Below are positions 5,266 through 56,089 of a DNA stretch of 64,000 nt, one piece after another. The translations under genes and the position numbers were made by a program. The first letter of the stretch is position 1. Every line of letters begins with the position of its first letter. Under the pieces are notes generated by a model. It was not told the origin of the DNA. It searched no databases and saw only the letters and a list, made by a program, of their open reading frames with translations. This DNA is from Quadrisphaera sp. INWT6 (lineage in GTDB: Bacteria; Actinomycetota; Actinomycetes; Actinomycetales; Quadrisphaeraceae): NCBI RefSeq assembly GCF_015390235.1, contig NZ_VUOH01000002.1:620001-684000 (forward strand). The letters are read 5' to 3'.

Positions 5266-6686
5266 GGGCGTGCCGCCCCGGCCAGCGCGGCGACGGCGCC
5301 GCGCAGCTGGGCCTGGGTGGCCGCGCCGTAGCCGAGCACCACGGCCGGCGGCAGGTCGGTGCGGGCCACGGCGTACTCGGCCAGGTCGGCCAGCTCGTAC
5401 CCGCGGCCCGCGACGGCGGCGAGGACCGCTGCGGCGTCGGTGCCGCGGGGCAGCTCGACCACGACGTGCAGCCCGGCCGCGGCGCCCCGGGCCCGCAGGT
5501 GCGGGTGCTCGGACAGCAGCTGCTGCAGGTGCGCCCGGCGGTGGGCCTGGTCGCGGCGCACCCGCGCGACGTGGCGCCGCAGGCCGCCCCCGGCGAGGAA
5601 GTGCGCCAGCGCCTGCTGGGCCTGCCCGCCGACGGGCTCGCCGAGGTCGCGGCGGACGTCGGCGAGCGCGCCGCGCAGGTGCGGCGGTGCGAGCAGGTAC
5701 CCCGCGCGCAGCCACGGCGAGAGCACCTTGGAGAAGGTCCCGGCGTGCACCACGTGCTGGGGGCCGAGACCCGCGAGGGCCGGCAGCGGCGCGGACCCGT
5801 AGCGGAACTCGCCGTCGTAGTCGTCCTCCAGCACCAGGGCCCCCGCCTCCTGGGCGCGGGCCAGCAGCGCGGCCCGCCGCTCGAGCGGCAGCACCCCGCC
5901 CCACGGGTACTGGTGGCTGGGGGTGACCAGCACGGCGTCGAGCTCACCGCGCCGGGCGGGGAGCCGGTCGACGAGGAGCCCGTCGTCGTCGACGTGCACG
6001 GGCAGCACCTCCGCGCCGAGGCGGCGCAGGCAGCGCAGCGACGAGGGGTAGCCGGGGTCCTCGACGGCGACGCGCAGCGGACGGCCCCGCAGCGCGGTGA
6101 GGGCGTGGACGACGAGGGCCAGGCCGTCACCGGTGCCGGCGGTGACGACGACGTCGGCGGGGTCGGCGTCGAGGCCGCGGGCGGCGCGCAGGTGGGCGGC
6201 CACCTCGAACCGCAGCGCCGGCAGGCCCAGCGGCGGCGGCACGCGGTCGGGCACGGCCGCGCCGGAGGCGGCCCGCCAGGCGCTGCGCCAGGCGGCGTCG
6301 ACCAGGCGGGCGGTGTCGGGCTGGCCGGGACGCAGGTCGACGACGACGCCCGCCACCGCGGTGCCCCGGGGAGCGGGCAGCGCTGCCGGCACCCGGCCCG
6401 GACCGGGGCTCGGCAGCGCGCGCAGGTGCTCGCTCACGCGGGTGCCGCTGCCGTGCCGGGCCTGGAGGAAGCCCTCGCCCAGGAGCTGCTCGTAGGCGGT
6501 GGTGACGGTGGCCCGGGAGAGCCCGAGCTGGTCGGCGAGGCGCCGCGAGGAGGGCAGCGGCGCCCCCGGGGCCAGGTGGTGGTGGCGGACGGCGGCGCGC
6601 AGGGCGTCGGCGAGCTGCGCGTGGAGCGGGACCGCGCCGGTGCGGTCGAGGGACACGGGCAGCTCGAGCTCGGCGGTAGTCCTCAC
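5262..6686 (-). CDS. MocR/GabR-type PLP-dependent transcriptional regulator
   Basis: A 474-residue chimera of a GntR-type winged helix (about residues 15-80, with LPSSRRLADQLGLSRATVTTA as the recognition region) and a class I aminotransferase fold (about 120-470). The PLP lysine is visible in GTFSKVLSPWLRAGYLL, preceded by EDDYDGEFRYG. The GTG 6686 start has GGAG 6 nt upstream. It is divergent from a flavin-binding protein and separated from it by four direct repeats, the usual operator type for this family. Members regulate vitamin B6 or amine metabolism; the effector here is unknown. Confidence 0.9.
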   Translation of the reverse strand: MRTTAELELPVSLDRTGAVPLHAQLADALRAAVRHHHLAPGAPLPSSRRLADQLGLSRATVTTAYEQLLGEGFLQARHGSGTRVSEHLRALPSPGPGRVPAALPAPRGTAVAGVVVDLRPGQPDTARLVDAAWRSAWRAASGAAVPDRVPPPLGLPALRFEVAAHLRAARGLDADPADVVVTAGTGDGLALVVHALTALRGRPLRVAVEDPGYPSSLRCLRRLGAEVLPVHVDDDGLLVDRLPARRGELDAVLVTPSHQYPWGGVLPLERRAALLARAQEAGALVLEDDYDGEFRYGSAPLPALAGLGPQHVVHAGTFSKVLSPWLRAGYLLAPPHLRGALADVRRDLGEPVGGQAQQALAHFLAGGGLRRHVARVRRDQAHRRAHLQQLLSEHPHLRARGAAAGLHVVVELPRGTDAAAVLAAVAGRGYELADLAEYAVARTDLPPAVVLGYGAATQAQLRGAVAALAGAARP

Positions 6687-7656: not shown

Positions 7657-10095
7657 TCAGAGCTTCTGGACGGGGGCGTAGCGCAGCAGCAGGCGCTTGG
7701 TGCCCTCGCTGCGGAAGTCGACGTGGGCGACGGTCTTGTCGCCCGCCCCCTCGACGGCCACCACGGTGCCCATGCCGAAGGAGTCGTGGGTGACGCGGTC
7801 ACCCACGGCGAGGTTGATGACCGGCCGGCTGCCCGCCGTCCGGACGCCGGGGGTGCCGGCGAGCTTGGCCTGCGCCGAGGAGTGGCTGCTGCCGTAGCCG
7901 CCGGCGCTGTAGCTCGACCCACCGCGGCCGCCCGCACCGCCGCCGCCCCAGCCCGAGGAGCCCGACGCCTCCGCGCGCTCCCAGCGGAGCAGCTCGGAGG
8001 GGATCTCGTCGAGGAAGCGCGAGGGCGGGAAGTACTGCGGCTGGCCCCAGGCGCTGCGCGAGGCGGCGCGGGAGATGCGCAGGAAGCGCCGGGCGCGGGT
8101 GATGCCGACGTAGGCGAGGCGCCGCTCCTCGGCGAGCTCGCCGTCGTCGGCCAGCGAGCGCTGGTGGGGGAAGGTGCCGTCCTCCAGACCGGTGAGGAAG
8201 ACCGCGGGGAACTCCAGGCCCTTGGCGGTGTGGAGCGTCATGAGCGTGACCACGCCCGAGTCCTCCCCCGCCTGCTCGTCAGCGCCGTCCGCGACGGCGC
8301 CACCGGGGATCTGGTCGGCGTCGGCCACGAGCGAGACGGTCTCGAGGAAGTCCGCGAGCGTCCCCTCGGGGTTGGCCTGCTCGTACTCGGCGGCGACCGC
8401 GGACAGCTCGGCGAGGTTCTCCACGCGCGACTCGTCCTGCGGGTCGAGGCTGGCGCGCAGCTCGGCGAGGAGGCCCGACCTGTCGAGCACGGCCTCGAGC
8501 ACGGTGGACGGGCCCGCCCCGCCCTCGACGACGGTGCGCAGCTCGTCCATGAGCGTGGTGAACCCGCGGATGCAGGTCAGCGAGCGCGCGGCGATGCCGG
8601 GCGCCTGCTCCGCGCGGTCCAGCGCGGCGGGGAAGCCGATCCGCTCGCGCTCGGCGAGGGCGGCGACGCACGCCTCCGCGCGCTCGCCGATGCCGCGCTT
8701 GGGCACGTTGAGGATCCGACGCAGGCTGACCACGTCGTCGGGGTTGGCGAGGGCCCGCAGGTACGCGAGGGCGTCGCGGACCTCGCGGCGCTCGTAGAAG
8801 CGGGTGCCGCCGACCACCTTGTAGGGCAGGCCGACGCGGACGAAGACCTCCTCCAGCGCCCGCGACTGGGCGTTGGTCCGGTAGAAGACGGCGACGTCGC
8901 CGTAGCGCAGGCCCTCGTCGTCGACCAGCCTGTCGATCTCGCTCGCCACGAAGGCGGCCTCGTCGTGCTCGGCGTCGGCGACGTAGCCGACGATCTGCTC
9001 GCCGGAGCCCTCCGCCGTCCACAGGTTCTTGGGACGGCGGTCGGCGTTCTTGGCGATGACCGCGTTGGCCGCCGACAGGATCGTCTGCGTGGAGCGGTAG
9101 TTCTGCTCCAGCAGGATCGTGCGGGCGTCGGGGTAGTCCTCCTCGAACTCGACGATGTTGCGGATCGTCGCGCCGCGGAAGGCGTAGATCGACTGGTCGG
9201 CGTCGCCCACCACCGTCAGCTCGCCCTGGGGCACGCCGTCGGTGGGGTGGGAGGAGCCCGGGCCGCCGACCAGCTCGCGCACCAGGGTGTACTGCGCGTG
9301 GTTCGTGTCCTGGTACTCGTCGACCAGGACGTGCCGGAACCGGCGGCGGTAGTGCTCGGCGACCGCGGGGTGGGTCTGCAGCACCCGGACCGTGGTCATG
9401 ATCAGGTCGTCGAAGTCCATGGCGTTCGCCTGGCGCAGGCGCGCCTGGTACAGCGCGTAGACCTCGGCGAGCACCCGCTCCGCGTGGGTGCCCTCGGCGG
9501 CCGTGGCGGCGTGCGCCTCGGGGGTGACCAGCTCGTTCTTGAGGTTGCTGATCTGGGTGGCCAGCGCCCGGGGCGCGTAGCGCTTTGGGTCGAGGTCGAG
9601 CTCGCGGACCACCAGCGCCAGGAGGCGGCGGGAGTCGTCGGCGTCGTAGATGGAGAAGCTGGAGCGCAGGCCCGCGGCCTCGGCCTCGCGGCGCAGGATC
9701 CGCACGCACGCCGAGTGGAACGTGGAGACCCACATCGAGCGGACGGCGGGGCCGACCAGCCCCTCGAGCCGCTCCTTCATCTCGCCGGCGGCCTTGTTGG
9801 TGAAGGTGATGGCCAGCACCTGCCCGGGGCGGGCGCCGCGGGCGGCCACGAGGTGGGCGATGCGGTGGGTGAGCACGCGCGTCTTGCCCGAGCCCGCACC
9901 GGCCACGAGCAGCAGCGGGGTGCCCTCGTGGAGCACGCCCTCGCGCTGGGCGGGGTTGAGGCCCTCCAGCAGCGCGGCCGCGTCGATCCGGAGCGCCGGC
10001 CTGTCGGCGAGCGCGCCCGGCCGGGCGTCGTCCGAGGACGAGCCGGCAGGGGTCTGCGGGACCGGGAGGGGAAGGTCGTCGAAGAGCGTGCTCAT
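7657..10095 (-). CDS. pcrA: ATP-dependent DNA helicase PcrA (UvrD family)
   Basis: Superfamily 1A 3'-5' helicase for DNA repair and replication restart, 812 residues. Visible motifs include the Q motif LNPAQREGV (residues 46-54), Walker A GAGSGKTR (66-73), Walker B with VLVDEYQDTNHAQY, GDADQSIYAFRGA (motif III), LEQNYRSTQTIL (motif IV) and VTLMTLHTAKGLEFPAVFL (motif V). A Gly/Ser-rich linker near residue 700 leads to a C-terminal RNA-polymerase-binding type domain ending GDRVTHDSFGMGTV and beyond, as in other actinobacterial PcrA. A TAGGCT box lies 9 nt before ATG 10095. Confidence 0.97.
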   Translation of the reverse strand: MSTLFDDLPLPVPQTPAGSSSDDARPGALADRPALRIDAAALLEGLNPAQREGVLHEGTPLLLVAGAGSGKTRVLTHRIAHLVAARGARPGQVLAITFTNKAAGEMKERLEGLVGPAVRSMWVSTFHSACVRILRREAEAAGLRSSFSIYDADDSRRLLALVVRELDLDPKRYAPRALATQISNLKNELVTPEAHAATAAEGTHAERVLAEVYALYQARLRQANAMDFDDLIMTTVRVLQTHPAVAEHYRRRFRHVLVDEYQDTNHAQYTLVRELVGGPGSSHPTDGVPQGELTVVGDADQSIYAFRGATIRNIVEFEEDYPDARTILLEQNYRSTQTILSAANAVIAKNADRRPKNLWTAEGSGEQIVGYVADAEHDEAAFVASEIDRLVDDEGLRYGDVAVFYRTNAQSRALEEVFVRVGLPYKVVGGTRFYERREVRDALAYLRALANPDDVVSLRRILNVPKRGIGERAEACVAALAERERIGFPAALDRAEQAPGIAARSLTCIRGFTTLMDELRTVVEGGAGPSTVLEAVLDRSGLLAELRASLDPQDESRVENLAELSAVAAEYEQANPEGTLADFLETVSLVADADQIPGGAVADGADEQAGEDSGVVTLMTLHTAKGLEFPAVFLTGLEDGTFPHQRSLADDGELAEERRLAYVGITRARRFLRISRAASRSAWGQPQYFPPSRFLDEIPSELLRWERAEASGSSGWGGGGAGGRGGSSYSAGGYGSSHSSAQAKLAGTPGVRTAGSRPVINLAVGDRVTHDSFGMGTVVAVEGAGDKTVAHVDFRSEGTKRLLLRYAPVQKL

Positions 10096-50978: not shown

Positions 50979-52157
50979 GTGAGCTGGTCGTCGACCACCC
51001 CCGGTCCGGCGGCTCGCCGGCCTGCGCCGCGCCGACCGGCGCCGCAGGACGCCCCGCGGAAGGCCCTCCCCCTCGTGCTCTCCACCGTCGTCGTGCTGCT
51101 CGCCTGCGCGGTCGTCATCTACCTCGCCTGCGAGTGGTTCACCAACGCCGTCGAGTGGCTCGGGGTGCGCCTCGCCGTGGGGTCGGCGGTCGTGGCGACC
51201 GTGCTGGCTGCGGCCGGGACCGCCCTGCCGGAGAGCGTGGTCACCCTCGTCGCCGTGCTGTTCGGGTCCGAGGAGTCCGGCGCCGACGTCGGCGTCGGCT
51301 CCGCCCTCGGCGGCCCCCTGGTGGTGGGGAGCATCGCCTACGCCGTCGCGGGCGCGGTGCTGCTGCTGACCGCCCGCTCGCGGCGCGTGCGGGCGGTGAG
51401 CGCGGGGCGCGCCCGCGTGGCAGCCGCCAGCCCCGGTGGCGGCTCGCCCGCGGCCGTCGCCGCGGCCCCCGGCCCCGACCCCCTCGCCGGGGTCGACACC
51501 CGCGCCCTCGCCCGCGACCAGGCGTGGTTCCTGGGCGCGTTCGTCCTGGCCACCGGCCTGGGCCTGGTGGCCTTCGCCGTGAAGCCGCAGCTGGGCTGGG
51601 TCCTCTTCGGTGTCTACGCCCTGTACTGCTGGCGCCAGGTGCGCACGGGTGGGCCCGCCCACGCCAGCGAGGACCTGGAGCCGCTGAGGCTGCAGCGGCG
51701 ACGGGAGCGCCCGGCCACCTGGGCCGTGGTGGCGCAGGTGGTGCTGTCCCTGGCGGTGGTCTTCGCCGCCTCGCAGGTCTTCGTCGGGCAGCTCGAGGCC
51801 CTCGCACCCCAGCTGGGGCTGCCCGCCTCGCTCGTGGCGCTGCTCCTGGCACCGGTCGCCACCGAGCTGCCCGAGGTGCTCAACGCCGTCATCTGGGCGC
51901 GCAAGGGCAAGGTCGACCTGGCGCTGGGCAACCTCTCGGGCTCGATGGTCATCCAGGCGACGGTGCCCACGGGCCTGGGCGTGCTCTTCACCAGCTGGCA
52001 CCTGCAGGGACCCCTGCTGCTGGCCGCGGGCGCCACCGCGCTGTGCGTGGCCTACCTGCTCGTCCTGTTCGCCACCCGCCGGGTGACCCCGGGGCGGCTC
52101 GCCGCCGCCGGTGGCTTCTACGCCGCCTTCGCGCTGGCCCTGGGCGTCACCGCCTGA
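50979..52157 (+). CDS. Sodium/calcium exchanger family membrane protein
   Basis: A CaCA-superfamily antiporter of 392 residues and about 10-11 membrane segments. The two inverted alpha repeats are seen as GTALPESVVTLVAVLFGSEESG (about residues 80-101) and VATELPEVLNAVIWARKGKVD with GNLSGSMVIQATVP (about 290-325), with the conserved Glu ion ligands in LPE. Long Ala/Pro/Gly loops separate the halves (about 140-175). The GTG 50979 start is uncertain; the first 30 residues are Pro-rich. The ion is not determinable. Confidence 0.87.
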   Translation: MSWSSTTPGPAARRPAPRRPAPQDAPRKALPLVLSTVVVLLACAVVIYLACEWFTNAVEWLGVRLAVGSAVVATVLAAAGTALPESVVTLVAVLFGSEESGADVGVGSALGGPLVVGSIAYAVAGAVLLLTARSRRVRAVSAGRARVAAASPGGGSPAAVAAAPGPDPLAGVDTRALARDQAWFLGAFVLATGLGLVAFAVKPQLGWVLFGVYALYCWRQVRTGGPAHASEDLEPLRLQRRRERPATWAVVAQVVLSLAVVFAASQVFVGQLEALAPQLGLPASLVALLLAPVATELPEVLNAVIWARKGKVDLALGNLSGSMVIQATVPTGLGVLFTSWHLQGPLLLAAGATALCVAYLLVLFATRRVTPGRLAAAGGFYAAFALALGVTA

Positions 52158-52161
52158 GGCT

Positions 52162-52205
52162 CCGGGTGCCGCCCCGGCGGGCGGCCCCGGAGGGGCGGCA
52201 CCCGG
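52162..52205. terminator. Bidirectional hairpin between antiporter and SfnB-like genes
   Basis: Perfect 14-bp arms (52162-52175 and 52192-52205) with a 16-nt loop, in the 55-bp gap between two converging stops. Confidence 0.8.
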
Positions 52206-52212
52206 GTGCGGC

Positions 52213-53523
52213 TCAGGCGGGGGTGGCTCCGCGCGCCGTCCCGATGGCCCACACGAACGGCGGCGTCGTGCCGTTGACCGACCAGTCGCCCACGATGCGG
52301 CTCTTGTAGATCACCGGGTTGTGCGACGCCACCGTGCGCGCGTTGCGCCAGTGGCGGTCGAGGTCCTTCGCGCGGGACGTGCCCGAGGCTCCGAGGGTGT
52401 TGAACAGCAGCGTCGCCGCGCGCGGCACGCTCTCGGACAGCACCACCTGGGCCTGCGCCGTGGCGACCTCGGCGCGGACGTTGGCCGCGCGGTCGGCCTC
52501 GGAGTCGCGCAGCTCCGGGCGCGCCGTGTCGGCCGCGCCCTGGACCGCGGCGGCGGCCGCGAGCGCCGTGGCCCGCGCCGCGAACGCGATCGCGGAGATC
52601 TCCCCGGCCACGGCCAGCACCTGCGGGTCCTCGCGCACCACCGCGGCCAGGCCGTGGCTGTACGAGCGGGTGCGGCTGCGGACCTCGTGGGCGGTGTCGC
52701 GCTCGACGGCCGCGGCGATCCCGGCGTGCACCGCCAGCAGCACGAGCTGGTACAGCGCCGTCTGGTAGCGGAACCTGTCGTCGAAGGCGGCGACGTCGTC
52801 GTCCTCCACCAGGGCGCCGTCGAGCTCGAGGGTGCCGGTGCCCGTCAGCTGCTGGCCGAAGCCGTCCCAGTCGTCGCTGACCCGCACGCCGGGCTGGTCG
52901 AGCCGCACCAGCGCGGTCACCGTGCCGGCGGCGGCGTCGCCCGCGGCCTGCGCGGCGAGGGTCGCCTCGTCGGTGAGCTGGGCGACGACGTCGCTCCACC
53001 CGGCGTAGATCGTGCCGGTCGTGTAGTACTTGCGGCCCGTGATGCGCCAGCGGCCGTCCTCGCCGCGGGTCACCTTGGTCTGCTGGCCGCCGAGCTCGGT
53101 GCCGCCGGTCTCGCTCCAGGCGTTGCCGGCCCACTCCCCCGCGACGATGCGTGCGAACCACGCGTCGCGGTAGGGGCCCTCGGGCAGCGACAGCAGGTGC
53201 TCCACCCAGGCCAGGTGCCCGCGGAAGACCTGCGGCAGGTTGGAGTCGGCGGCCGCCAGGTCGACGAGCAGCTCGGTGGTGGCCACGAGGTCGAGGCCGT
53301 CACCGCCGTGCTCGACCGGCACCCGGAGCCGCAGGAAGCCCGCGTCCACCAGCTCGGCGACCTGGGCGCGGGGCAGCTCGTGGTCGAGCTCGCGCTGCAC
53401 CACGCCGGTGGCCGCGCGGTCGAGGACCGGCTGCAGGCGCTCGCGGGCCGCGGCGAGGCGCTCAGCGGGGCCGGCCGCGGGGGCGGCGCTGGAGGTGCTG
53501 GTCAGGTCGAGCGTGCTGCTCAT
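52213..53523 (-). CDS. Acyl-CoA-dehydrogenase-fold flavoenzyme, SfnB/DszC type
   Basis: 436 residues with an acyl-CoA dehydrogenase fold: N-terminal helical domain, the middle beta domain from GNAWSETGGTELGGQQTKV and RITGRKYYTTGTIYAGWSDVV, and a C-terminal four-helix domain ending TTPPFVWAIGTA. This is the SfnB/DszC group, FMN-dependent monooxygenases used to release sulfur from organosulfur compounds. ATG 53523 has GAGGAG 8 nt upstream. A SAM-IV-like riboswitch lies upstream, so expression should fall when methionine/SAM is plentiful, as expected for sulfur scavenging. Confidence 0.87.
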   Translation of the reverse strand: MSSTLDLTSTSSAAPAAGPAERLAAARERLQPVLDRAATGVVQRELDHELPRAQVAELVDAGFLRLRVPVEHGGDGLDLVATTELLVDLAAADSNLPQVFRGHLAWVEHLLSLPEGPYRDAWFARIVAGEWAGNAWSETGGTELGGQQTKVTRGEDGRWRITGRKYYTTGTIYAGWSDVVAQLTDEATLAAQAAGDAAAGTVTALVRLDQPGVRVSDDWDGFGQQLTGTGTLELDGALVEDDDVAAFDDRFRYQTALYQLVLLAVHAGIAAAVERDTAHEVRSRTRSYSHGLAAVVREDPQVLAVAGEISAIAFAARATALAAAAAVQGAADTARPELRDSEADRAANVRAEVATAQAQVVLSESVPRAATLLFNTLGASGTSRAKDLDRHWRNARTVASHNPVIYKSRIVGDWSVNGTTPPFVWAIGTARGATPA

Positions 53524-53584
53524 CGGGTCTCTCCTCGGTCGCGGACGTCGTGGACGCGCGTGCGCCGAGGAGACGGCACGGAGG

Positions 53585-53700
53585 GAGGCTGCGCCGTTGC
53601 CCCTGCTGGCGCAGCGGGCCAGGTCTTCTCCCGGGGCACCCCACGACGCGGGGTTGCCGGCCAGCGAGCCGGGGCTCCGCGCTGGCACTCATGACCTGCC
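53585..53700 (-). promoter_or_regulatory. SAM-IV riboswitch
   Basis: The minus strand reads AGGTCATGAGTGCCAGCG, then AGCCCCGGCT, GCTGGCCGGCAACC, GGGGTGCCCCGGG and GAAGACCT, the core order of actinobacterial SAM-IV riboswitches as I know them. P1 pairs AGGTC (about 53697-53693) with GACCT (about 53625-53621). Downstream, GCTGCGCC/GGCGCAGC forms an 8-bp hairpin. A TAGCCT box (53710-53705) is placed so that transcription starts at P1. A covariance-model search would settle it. Confidence 0.85.
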
Positions 53701-53710
53701 GCGGAGGCTA

Positions 53711-53745
53711 GCGGCTGCCCCTGACCGGTGTCGAGGGGCAGCCGC
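53711..53745 (-). terminator. Hairpin after the desaturase gene
   Basis: Perfect 12-bp arms GCGGCTGCCCCT/AGGGGCAGCCGC with an 11-nt loop, 19 nt beyond the desaturase stop, and just upstream of the riboswitch promoter, so the riboswitch transcript is insulated from it. Confidence 0.75.
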
Positions 53746-53763
53746 GCCGCGGCCTCGAGGGGG

Positions 53764-54957
53764 TCAGGCGCGCAGCTGCGCCGCCATCGGGCAGCTGAAC
53801 GGGTCGCCGGCGCGCAGCCCCACCTCGTTGAGGTGGCTGATGATCGCGCGGTAGGAGCCGACCAGCGTGGTCTCGGTGTAGGGGATGCCGTGGGTGGCGC
53901 AGAACTCGCGCACCATCGGCTGCACCTTGCGCAGGTTGGGGCGCGGCATGCTCGGGAAGAGGTGGTGCTCGACCTGGCGGTTCAGGCCGCCCATGACGAA
54001 GTCGACGACGACGCCGCCGCTGATGTTGCGCGAGGTGAGCACCTGGCGGCGCAGGAAGTCGAGCTTGGCCCCGCGCTCGATGATCGGCATGCCGACGTGG
54101 TTCGGCGCGAACGCCCCGCCCATGCAGACGCCGAAGACCGCGAGGTGCACGCCGACGAAGGCGGCCGCCTTGCCCGGGCCCATCGTCAGCAGCAGGACGC
54201 CCAGGTAGGTGCTCCAGTGCACCGCGAGGAACACGACGTCGACCCAGCGGCCCTTGACCGGGGAGCGGCGGGCCAGCGCCTTGACGCTGTCGACGTGGAG
54301 GTTGGCGCCCGAGAGCAGCAGCAGCGGGAGGAAGAACCAGCCCTGCTTGCGGGTCACGGCCGCCCACAGGCCGCGGCGGCGCCCCGCCTCCTCGTCGTGG
54401 AAGGCGACGACGAGCGACTCGATGTCGGTGTCCTTGCCCACCTGGTTGGGGGCGGCGTGGTGGCGGGAGTGCTTGTTCATCCACCAGCCGTAGCTGAGGC
54501 CGGCGCACAGGCCGGCGAAGACCCGCGCCGCCCACTCGTTGCGCGCGGACGACTCGAACACCTGGCGGTGCGCGCCGTCGTGCCCCAGGAAGGCGAACTG
54601 GGTGCACAGCACCCCGAGCGCACCCGCCAGCAGCAGCTGCCACCACGAGTCGCCGAGGAGGACGACCCCGGCGACCAGGGCTGCGGCGGCGAGGACGGCG
54701 ATGCTCGTCCGGACCGCGTAGTAGCCGCGGCGGCGGCCGAGGAGCCCGGCCTCCTTGACCTTCTTGGAGAGCTCGGCGTAGGCGCTGACGGCTCGGTCGC
54801 GCTCCCGGACCCGCGGCGCGGCGGGTGCGGGGAGGTCGGTGGCGGCCTGGACGGGCTGAGCGGTGATGACGGCTCCCGCGGTGTCGACGGCCTCACCCAC
54901 GGACGTGGCTGTTGGCCGGGCCCCGCCGGGGGCGGCAGCGCCCGACCAATGTCTCAC
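53764..54957 (-). CDS. Membrane fatty acid desaturase (acyl-CoA/acyl-lipid type)
   Basis: A di-iron desaturase of 397 residues introducing a double bond into fatty acyl chains. It has three histidine boxes: HDGAH (126-130), HSRHH (163-167) and QVEHH near residue 340. The Gln in the third box is the type found in front-end/DesA-like desaturases. Four membrane segments fit the family. The first 50 residues are a low-complexity Ala/Pro/Thr leader; GTG 54900 is an alternative start. Confidence 0.9.
   Translation of the reverse strand: MRHWSGAAAPGGARPTATSVGEAVDTAGAVITAQPVQAATDLPAPAAPRVRERDRAVSAYAELSKKVKEAGLLGRRRGYYAVRTSIAVLAAAALVAGVVLLGDSWWQLLLAGALGVLCTQFAFLGHDGAHRQVFESSARNEWAARVFAGLCAGLSYGWWMNKHSRHHAAPNQVGKDTDIESLVVAFHDEEAGRRRGLWAAVTRKQGWFFLPLLLLSGANLHVDSVKALARRSPVKGRWVDVVFLAVHWSTYLGVLLLTMGPGKAAAFVGVHLAVFGVCMGGAFAPNHVGMPIIERGAKLDFLRRQVLTSRNISGGVVVDFVMGGLNRQVEHHLFPSMPRPNLRKVQPMVREFCATHGIPYTETTLVGSYRAIISHLNEVGLRAGDPFSCPMAAQLRA

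Positions 54958-55018: not shown

Positions 55019-56089
<1,071 letters not shown>

Follow-up and report, generated by a model that had tools for sequence, protein, structure and literature searches.

A SAM-IV riboswitch ahead of a DszC/MsuC/SfnB-like flavin monooxygenase gene in Quadrisphaera sp. INWT6

The window analyzed here, a stretch of 64,000 nucleotides of contig NZ_VUOH01000002.1 from Quadrisphaera sp. INWT6, carries on its minus strand a SAM-IV riboswitch aptamer that is followed after 65 nt by the gene for a flavin monooxygenase (Table 1). The span 53585-53710 comprises this aptamer together with a -10 box. The reading frame of the monooxygenase opens at an ATG at 53523. The gene that comes next (51075-52157) converges on it, so the monooxygenase gene probably has a transcript to itself. 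Upstream of the leader lie a fatty-acid desaturase gene (53764-54900) and an ORF at 55019-56089 that we take to be tsaD; a tRNA-Ser(GGA) call at 55288-55374, on the strand opposite to this ORF, is probably false.

Table 1. Features of the SAM-IV leader and its gene, in window coordinates
Feature	Position	Strand	Basis
-35-like hexamer TCGACA, 18 nt before -10 box	53729..53734	-	read from sequence
-10 box TAGCCT (TANNNT type), 8 nt before aptamer	53705..53710	-	TANNNT position survey
SAM-IV riboswitch aptamer	53588..53696	-	Rfam RF00634 match, covariation on 21 sequences
P1 5' strand GGUC (partner GACC, 53625-53622)	53693..53696	-	alignment columns 1-4 with 76-79
PK-2 5' strand, in P3 loop	53645..53650	-	alignment columns 51-56 with 117-122
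PK-2 3' strand, 3' of P5 hairpin	53590..53595	-	alignment columns 117-122 with 51-56
Anti-Shine-Dalgarno UCUCCUCGG	53565..53573	-	9-nt complement of CCGAGGAGA (53538-53530)
Shine-Dalgarno GAGGAG, 7 nt before ATG	53531..53536	-	read from sequence
Regulated gene, 436-aa DszC/MsuC/SfnB-like flavin monooxygenase (P0001), one-gene unit	52213..53523	-	profiles, structure matches

A search of the whole window with all Rfam covariance models returned SAM-IV (RF00634) as the sole match at the gathering threshold, with 77.5 bits (E 4.6e-12) against a cut-off of 38 bits and over the full length of the model (positions 1-116 of 116). The preliminary description, which had staked its class assignment on such a search, thus named the class correctly. 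Its recognition of the core helices was also borne out: a structure with P1, P2, P3, the 3' hairpin (P5), PK-1 and PK-2 can be drawn in full. Covariation was analyzed in an alignment of 21 SAM-IV sequences, the host genome supplying eight (its full set) and relatives thirteen. Both sides change in 17 of the 37 pairs; shuffling gave 8.6 on average, and none of 500 shuffles reached 17. The P1 pairs are formed in 100% of cells. In PK-2 all six pairs covary, with 88.1% of cells paired, and in PK-1 one of five covaries (C-G to U-A in five sequences), the other four being invariant. As the PK-2 columns were picked by eye on this same alignment, a control in which partners were slid by one column matters for this helix; pairing dropped to 43-45% of cells, compared with 95.4% standard pairs in the named structure.

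According to a cryo-EM report (PMC6890682), the SAM-IV architecture combines PK-1 and PK-2, lacks a P4 helix and places the P5 hairpin 5' of the PK-2 strand, and residues 2-4, 7-8, 63-65 and 77 are modelled around SAM. The window element shares this arrangement, with both pseudoknots, without P4 and with the P5 hairpin ahead of the PK-2 strand, and its row equals the alignment consensus at the columns matching those pocket residues. The element is a bona fide SAM-IV riboswitch with an intact pocket, and its aptamer would be expected to bind SAM.

The -10 box had been proposed to start transcription at P1, and a survey of 63 SAM-IV sites, each taken with 60 nt of its upstream flank, agrees: a TANNNT hexamer lies 5-13 nt 5' of the aptamer in 43 of them (mononucleotide-shuffled mean 1.9), and in four bins further upstream it was found at none. 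The box fits a transcription start at or beside the first aptamer nucleotide. A strict sigma-70 scan found no promoter at the window leader; the -35-like hexamer is conserved in a close relative, G143. An inverted repeat of 12 perfect base pairs around an 11-nt loop (53711-53745) lies 3' of the desaturase stop and covers the -35 hexamer and the promoter spacer. No such repeat occurs in 100 window shuffles, and a terminator or an operator are candidate roles for it.

Among NCBIfam profiles the protein is best and nearly full-length matched by SfnB (TIGR04022), a sulfone-related oxidoreductase, yet its 234.5 bits lie below the equivalog cut-off of 430.9; DszC (NF043015) gives 116.9 bits against a cut-off of 850, and Pfam finds three acyl-CoA dehydrogenase domains, general ones only. 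Ten homologues, of which two are close orthologues and eight are more remote proteins from actinobacteria and proteobacteria, likewise stay below the SfnB cut-off (230-288 bits). By these profile scores, therefore, the protein is not SfnB itself and is a member of a sister subfamily, represented in Pseudomonas, Microbacterium, Arthrobacter and others; the original call of an SfnB/DszC-like flavoenzyme is right about the likeness and needs narrowing as to SfnB. The closest solved structures by sequence are TdsC, MsuC, DszC and MAB_4123, ahead of acyl-CoA dehydrogenases, and a predicted model (mean pLDDT 76.2) has TdsC, DszC, MAB_4123 and MsuC as its top Foldseek matches, which places both fold and nearest structures in the DszC/TdsC/MsuC group. 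The modelled protein shares the acyl-CoA dehydrogenase fold of the dibenzothiophene monooxygenase TdsC/DszC and the methanesulfinate monooxygenase MsuC, with an identity of roughly 24-28% across the aligned fold and a common C-terminal block around DRxWRNxRTxxxHxPVxYK. It is probably an enzyme that frees sulfur from organic compounds, and its substrate would then be an organic sulfur compound. When neighbors of distant homologues were scanned for substrate hints, they were of little help: five of ten ORFs had no Pfam match at 1e-5.

In the order, 33 of 198 genomes contain a match to the monooxygenase at 1e-60. Within the genus, the orthologue has SAM-IV ahead of it in all six genomes (the window, L017-L020, and L199 in G143, whose copy of the gene is broken across two contigs); in a second family (g17; L022-L028), the same is true of all seven orthologues at 67-73% identity. 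At 17 further loci with 40-56% identity (L029-L045), one SAM-IV lies about 800 nt upstream and one SAM-I was found; the remaining 15 have neither class within about 1.5 kb. Distant homologues in a titled genome collection follow SAM-IV at 3 of 80 loci, all from Arthrobacter, and at locus L118 the riboswitch is followed by an acyl-CoA dehydrogenase-fold protein, a homologue of the monooxygenase and an amino-acid permease. We also considered whether the element belongs to the upstream desaturase gene and rejected this: the desaturase is present at only one of 13 orthologous loci (12 genomes), that of G143, while SAM-IV and monooxygenase stay paired, and the riboswitch therefore travels with the monooxygenase gene. 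The pairing of riboswitch and monooxygenase is conserved.

Eight SAM-IV sites are present in the host genome. Besides the window gene, they precede metY-metX; metQNI; a unit of NCS1 permease, hydantoinase and S-methylthiohydantoin desulfurase; a Peripla_BP_4 ABC importer; OsmC with three luciferase-like monooxygenases (Pfam) and a fourth related by BLAST; and a MetN-MetI-NlpA unit with a luciferase-like monooxygenase; for the remaining site no same-strand gene was found downstream. These sites mostly serve sulfur uptake and scavenging genes, so that the link between SAM level and sulfur scavenging drawn in the preliminary description is supported, yet is not peculiar to the gene for which it was drawn. 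All four SfnB/DszC-like host genes (E<=1e-10) sit in SAM-riboswitch-led units, the window gene behind SAM-IV and three behind SAM-I elements that stand head to head with SAM-IV. Between 6 and 10 SAM-IV sites were counted in each of four other genus members in the survey, and across the order SAM-IV occurs in 73 of 119 genomes. A further 40 SAM-IV regions, two pairs of which overlap, were examined through family scans of cluster representatives only. Among their units are DszC-like enzymes, monooxygenases of the NtaA/DmoA and MsnO8 types, an S-methylmethionine permease-like gene, enzymes resembling cysteine desulfurase and a TauE exporter.

SAM-IV leaders are known upstream of an O-acetylhomoserine sulfhydrylase gene in Mycobacterium avium (PMC3774663) and of a cysteine desulfurase gene in Streptomyces lividans (PMC8079986). 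The window element resembles them as a full-length aptamer with P1, P2, P3, P5, PK-1 and PK-2 leading a sulfur-metabolism gene, but that gene here encodes a DszC/SfnB-like monooxygenase and the host has eight copies of the leader. Literature searches found no paper joining SAM-IV, riboswitch and monooxygenase, although an earlier mention is possible, for example in the founding paper (Weinberg 2008), and nothing joining riboswitch, sulfur scavenging and S-adenosylmethionine; papers that treat SAM-IV riboswitches and sulfonate appear not to address this point. SAM-IV is a known riboswitch class, and the noteworthy part is the breadth of the scavenging regulon.

In the SAM-I/SAM-IV clan, SAM binding generally means OFF, and by analogy the window riboswitch would keep its gene off at high SAM. 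We consider it very likely that the SAM-IV leader of a one-gene mRNA represses the DszC/MsuC/SfnB-like monooxygenase when SAM is high and that low SAM leads to sulfur release. Transcription would begin at or beside the first aptamer nucleotide, and SAM-IV would form the 5' leader of an mRNA that carries this one gene; plentiful SAM would bind and lock P1 and PK-2, switching the monooxygenase gene off; and a drop in SAM under sulfur limitation would allow the enzyme to be made and to help free sulfur from an organic sulfur compound. A SAM sensor ahead of a scavenging gene would therefore let the cell turn scavenging off when sulfur is plentiful. Such an arrangement would tie a SAM sensor directly and conservedly to enzymes that probably cut sulfur from organic compounds, and the riboswitch context hints at organic sulfur as the substrate class of an uncharacterised SfnB/DszC sister subfamily. 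With eight SAM-IV leaders before different scavenging operons, some divergent from SAM-I, this one genome offers a test system.

Two readings depart from this proposal at the enzyme or at the aptamer. The riboswitch might be functional and the protein an acyl-CoA dehydrogenase-like enzyme of another role, not a sulfur-releasing monooxygenase, as the purely general Pfam domains and scores far short of the equivalog cut-offs for SfnB and DszC would allow; we regard this as unlikely, given that TdsC, DszC, MsuC and MAB_4123 outrank acyl-CoA dehydrogenases by both sequence and fold and that every homologue found in the host genome sits in a SAM-riboswitch-led unit. Far less probable still is a decaying aptamer copy that has lost its SAM response. 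The window site does have the lowest of the host's eight SAM-IV scores (the others reach 88.1-97.1 bits), and at alignment column 72 it carries A, against U in the 20 other rows; however, the same A occurs in G143, which belongs to the same genus and lies outside the alignment, the pocket residues and helices are intact, and the SAM-IV pairing is retained in all close orthologues.

A further alternative keeps the riboswitch and the gene and concerns the level of control. Within the linker, a 9-nt complementarity joins UCUCCUCGG to the Shine-Dalgarno region CCGAGGAGA; when the linker was shuffled by dinucleotides, an equally long match arose in 6 of 500 shuffles. Four genus leaders have a 7-nt complement (CUCCUCG), with 40-69 of 500 shuffles each as long, and the G143 leader keeps CUCCUCGG. 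Translational control through pairing of UCUCCUCGG with CCGAGGAGA in the bound state has perhaps an even chance. It is a fair guess, about level with transcriptional control, because the anti-Shine-Dalgarno is present but constrained folding gave no switch and a Streptomyces precedent exists: for the SAM-IV leader of Streptomyces clavuligerus a premature transcription unit is reported (PMC8269248), in favor of transcriptional control in that species. In the window leader the Shine-Dalgarno was paired both with the aptamer enforced and with P1 blocked (unpaired probability 0.01 and 0.00 in these two folds, with pseudoknots approximated). The earlier suggestion of translational control is plausible from the complement but finds no echo in the folding. 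Under transcriptional control, SAM would favor early termination, brought about by Rho or by a GC hairpin that lacks a T-run. The S. clavuligerus leader, the missing translational switch and the second family, whose linkers have no conserved anti-Shine-Dalgarno, speak for this possibility, to which we give a little less than an even chance; against it, no terminator-like site was found in 52100-53900, and the linker complement recurs in the genus leaders. A U-tract terminator was rejected, since no terminator with a T-run was found, in line with the preliminary description. The idea that all orthologues share one anti-Shine-Dalgarno mechanism was likewise rejected: the linker element is conserved within the genus, not in the second family, where the CUCCUCG complement, in leaders that have it, is usually located in the P3 loop, and no common expression platform can therefore be fixed.

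Beyond the single locus, we tentatively suggest, at somewhat under even confidence, that SAM-IV, with head-to-head SAM-I, may be the main RNA-only switch of the whole organosulfur-scavenging regulon in this lineage, in the role that protein sulfur regulators fill elsewhere. So read, and just as tentatively, the regulon might take in flavin monooxygenases with two different folds, genes for uptake or use of S-methylthiohydantoin and S-methylmethionine, and methionine importers.

Several SAM-IV loci have arrangements of their own. At L015 (2001-2110; 88.1 bits), the site for which no downstream gene on the same strand was found, a LacI-type gene lies antisense and is broken into two frames. At L014 (2001-2430), about 300 nt separate SAM-IV from a MetN-like gene, and a Shine-Dalgarno-like GAGGAG with a 16-codon GTG frame, seen by eye directly 3' of the aptamer, is perhaps a leader peptide. 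SAM-IV stands head to head with SAM-I (RF00162) between divergent sulfur operons at L011 (SAM-IV 5889-6001, minus; SAM-I 6137-6224, plus) and L012 (7891-8001, minus; 8102-8201, plus), and also in L186, L188, L195 and L196; pairs of two SAM-IV elements occur in L028, L171 and L179. Finally, L180 (1001-1120 and 2719-2832) and L188 (1001-1114 and 2519-2628) each hold two same-strand SAM-IV elements, 1.5-1.7 kb apart and each ahead of its own genes.
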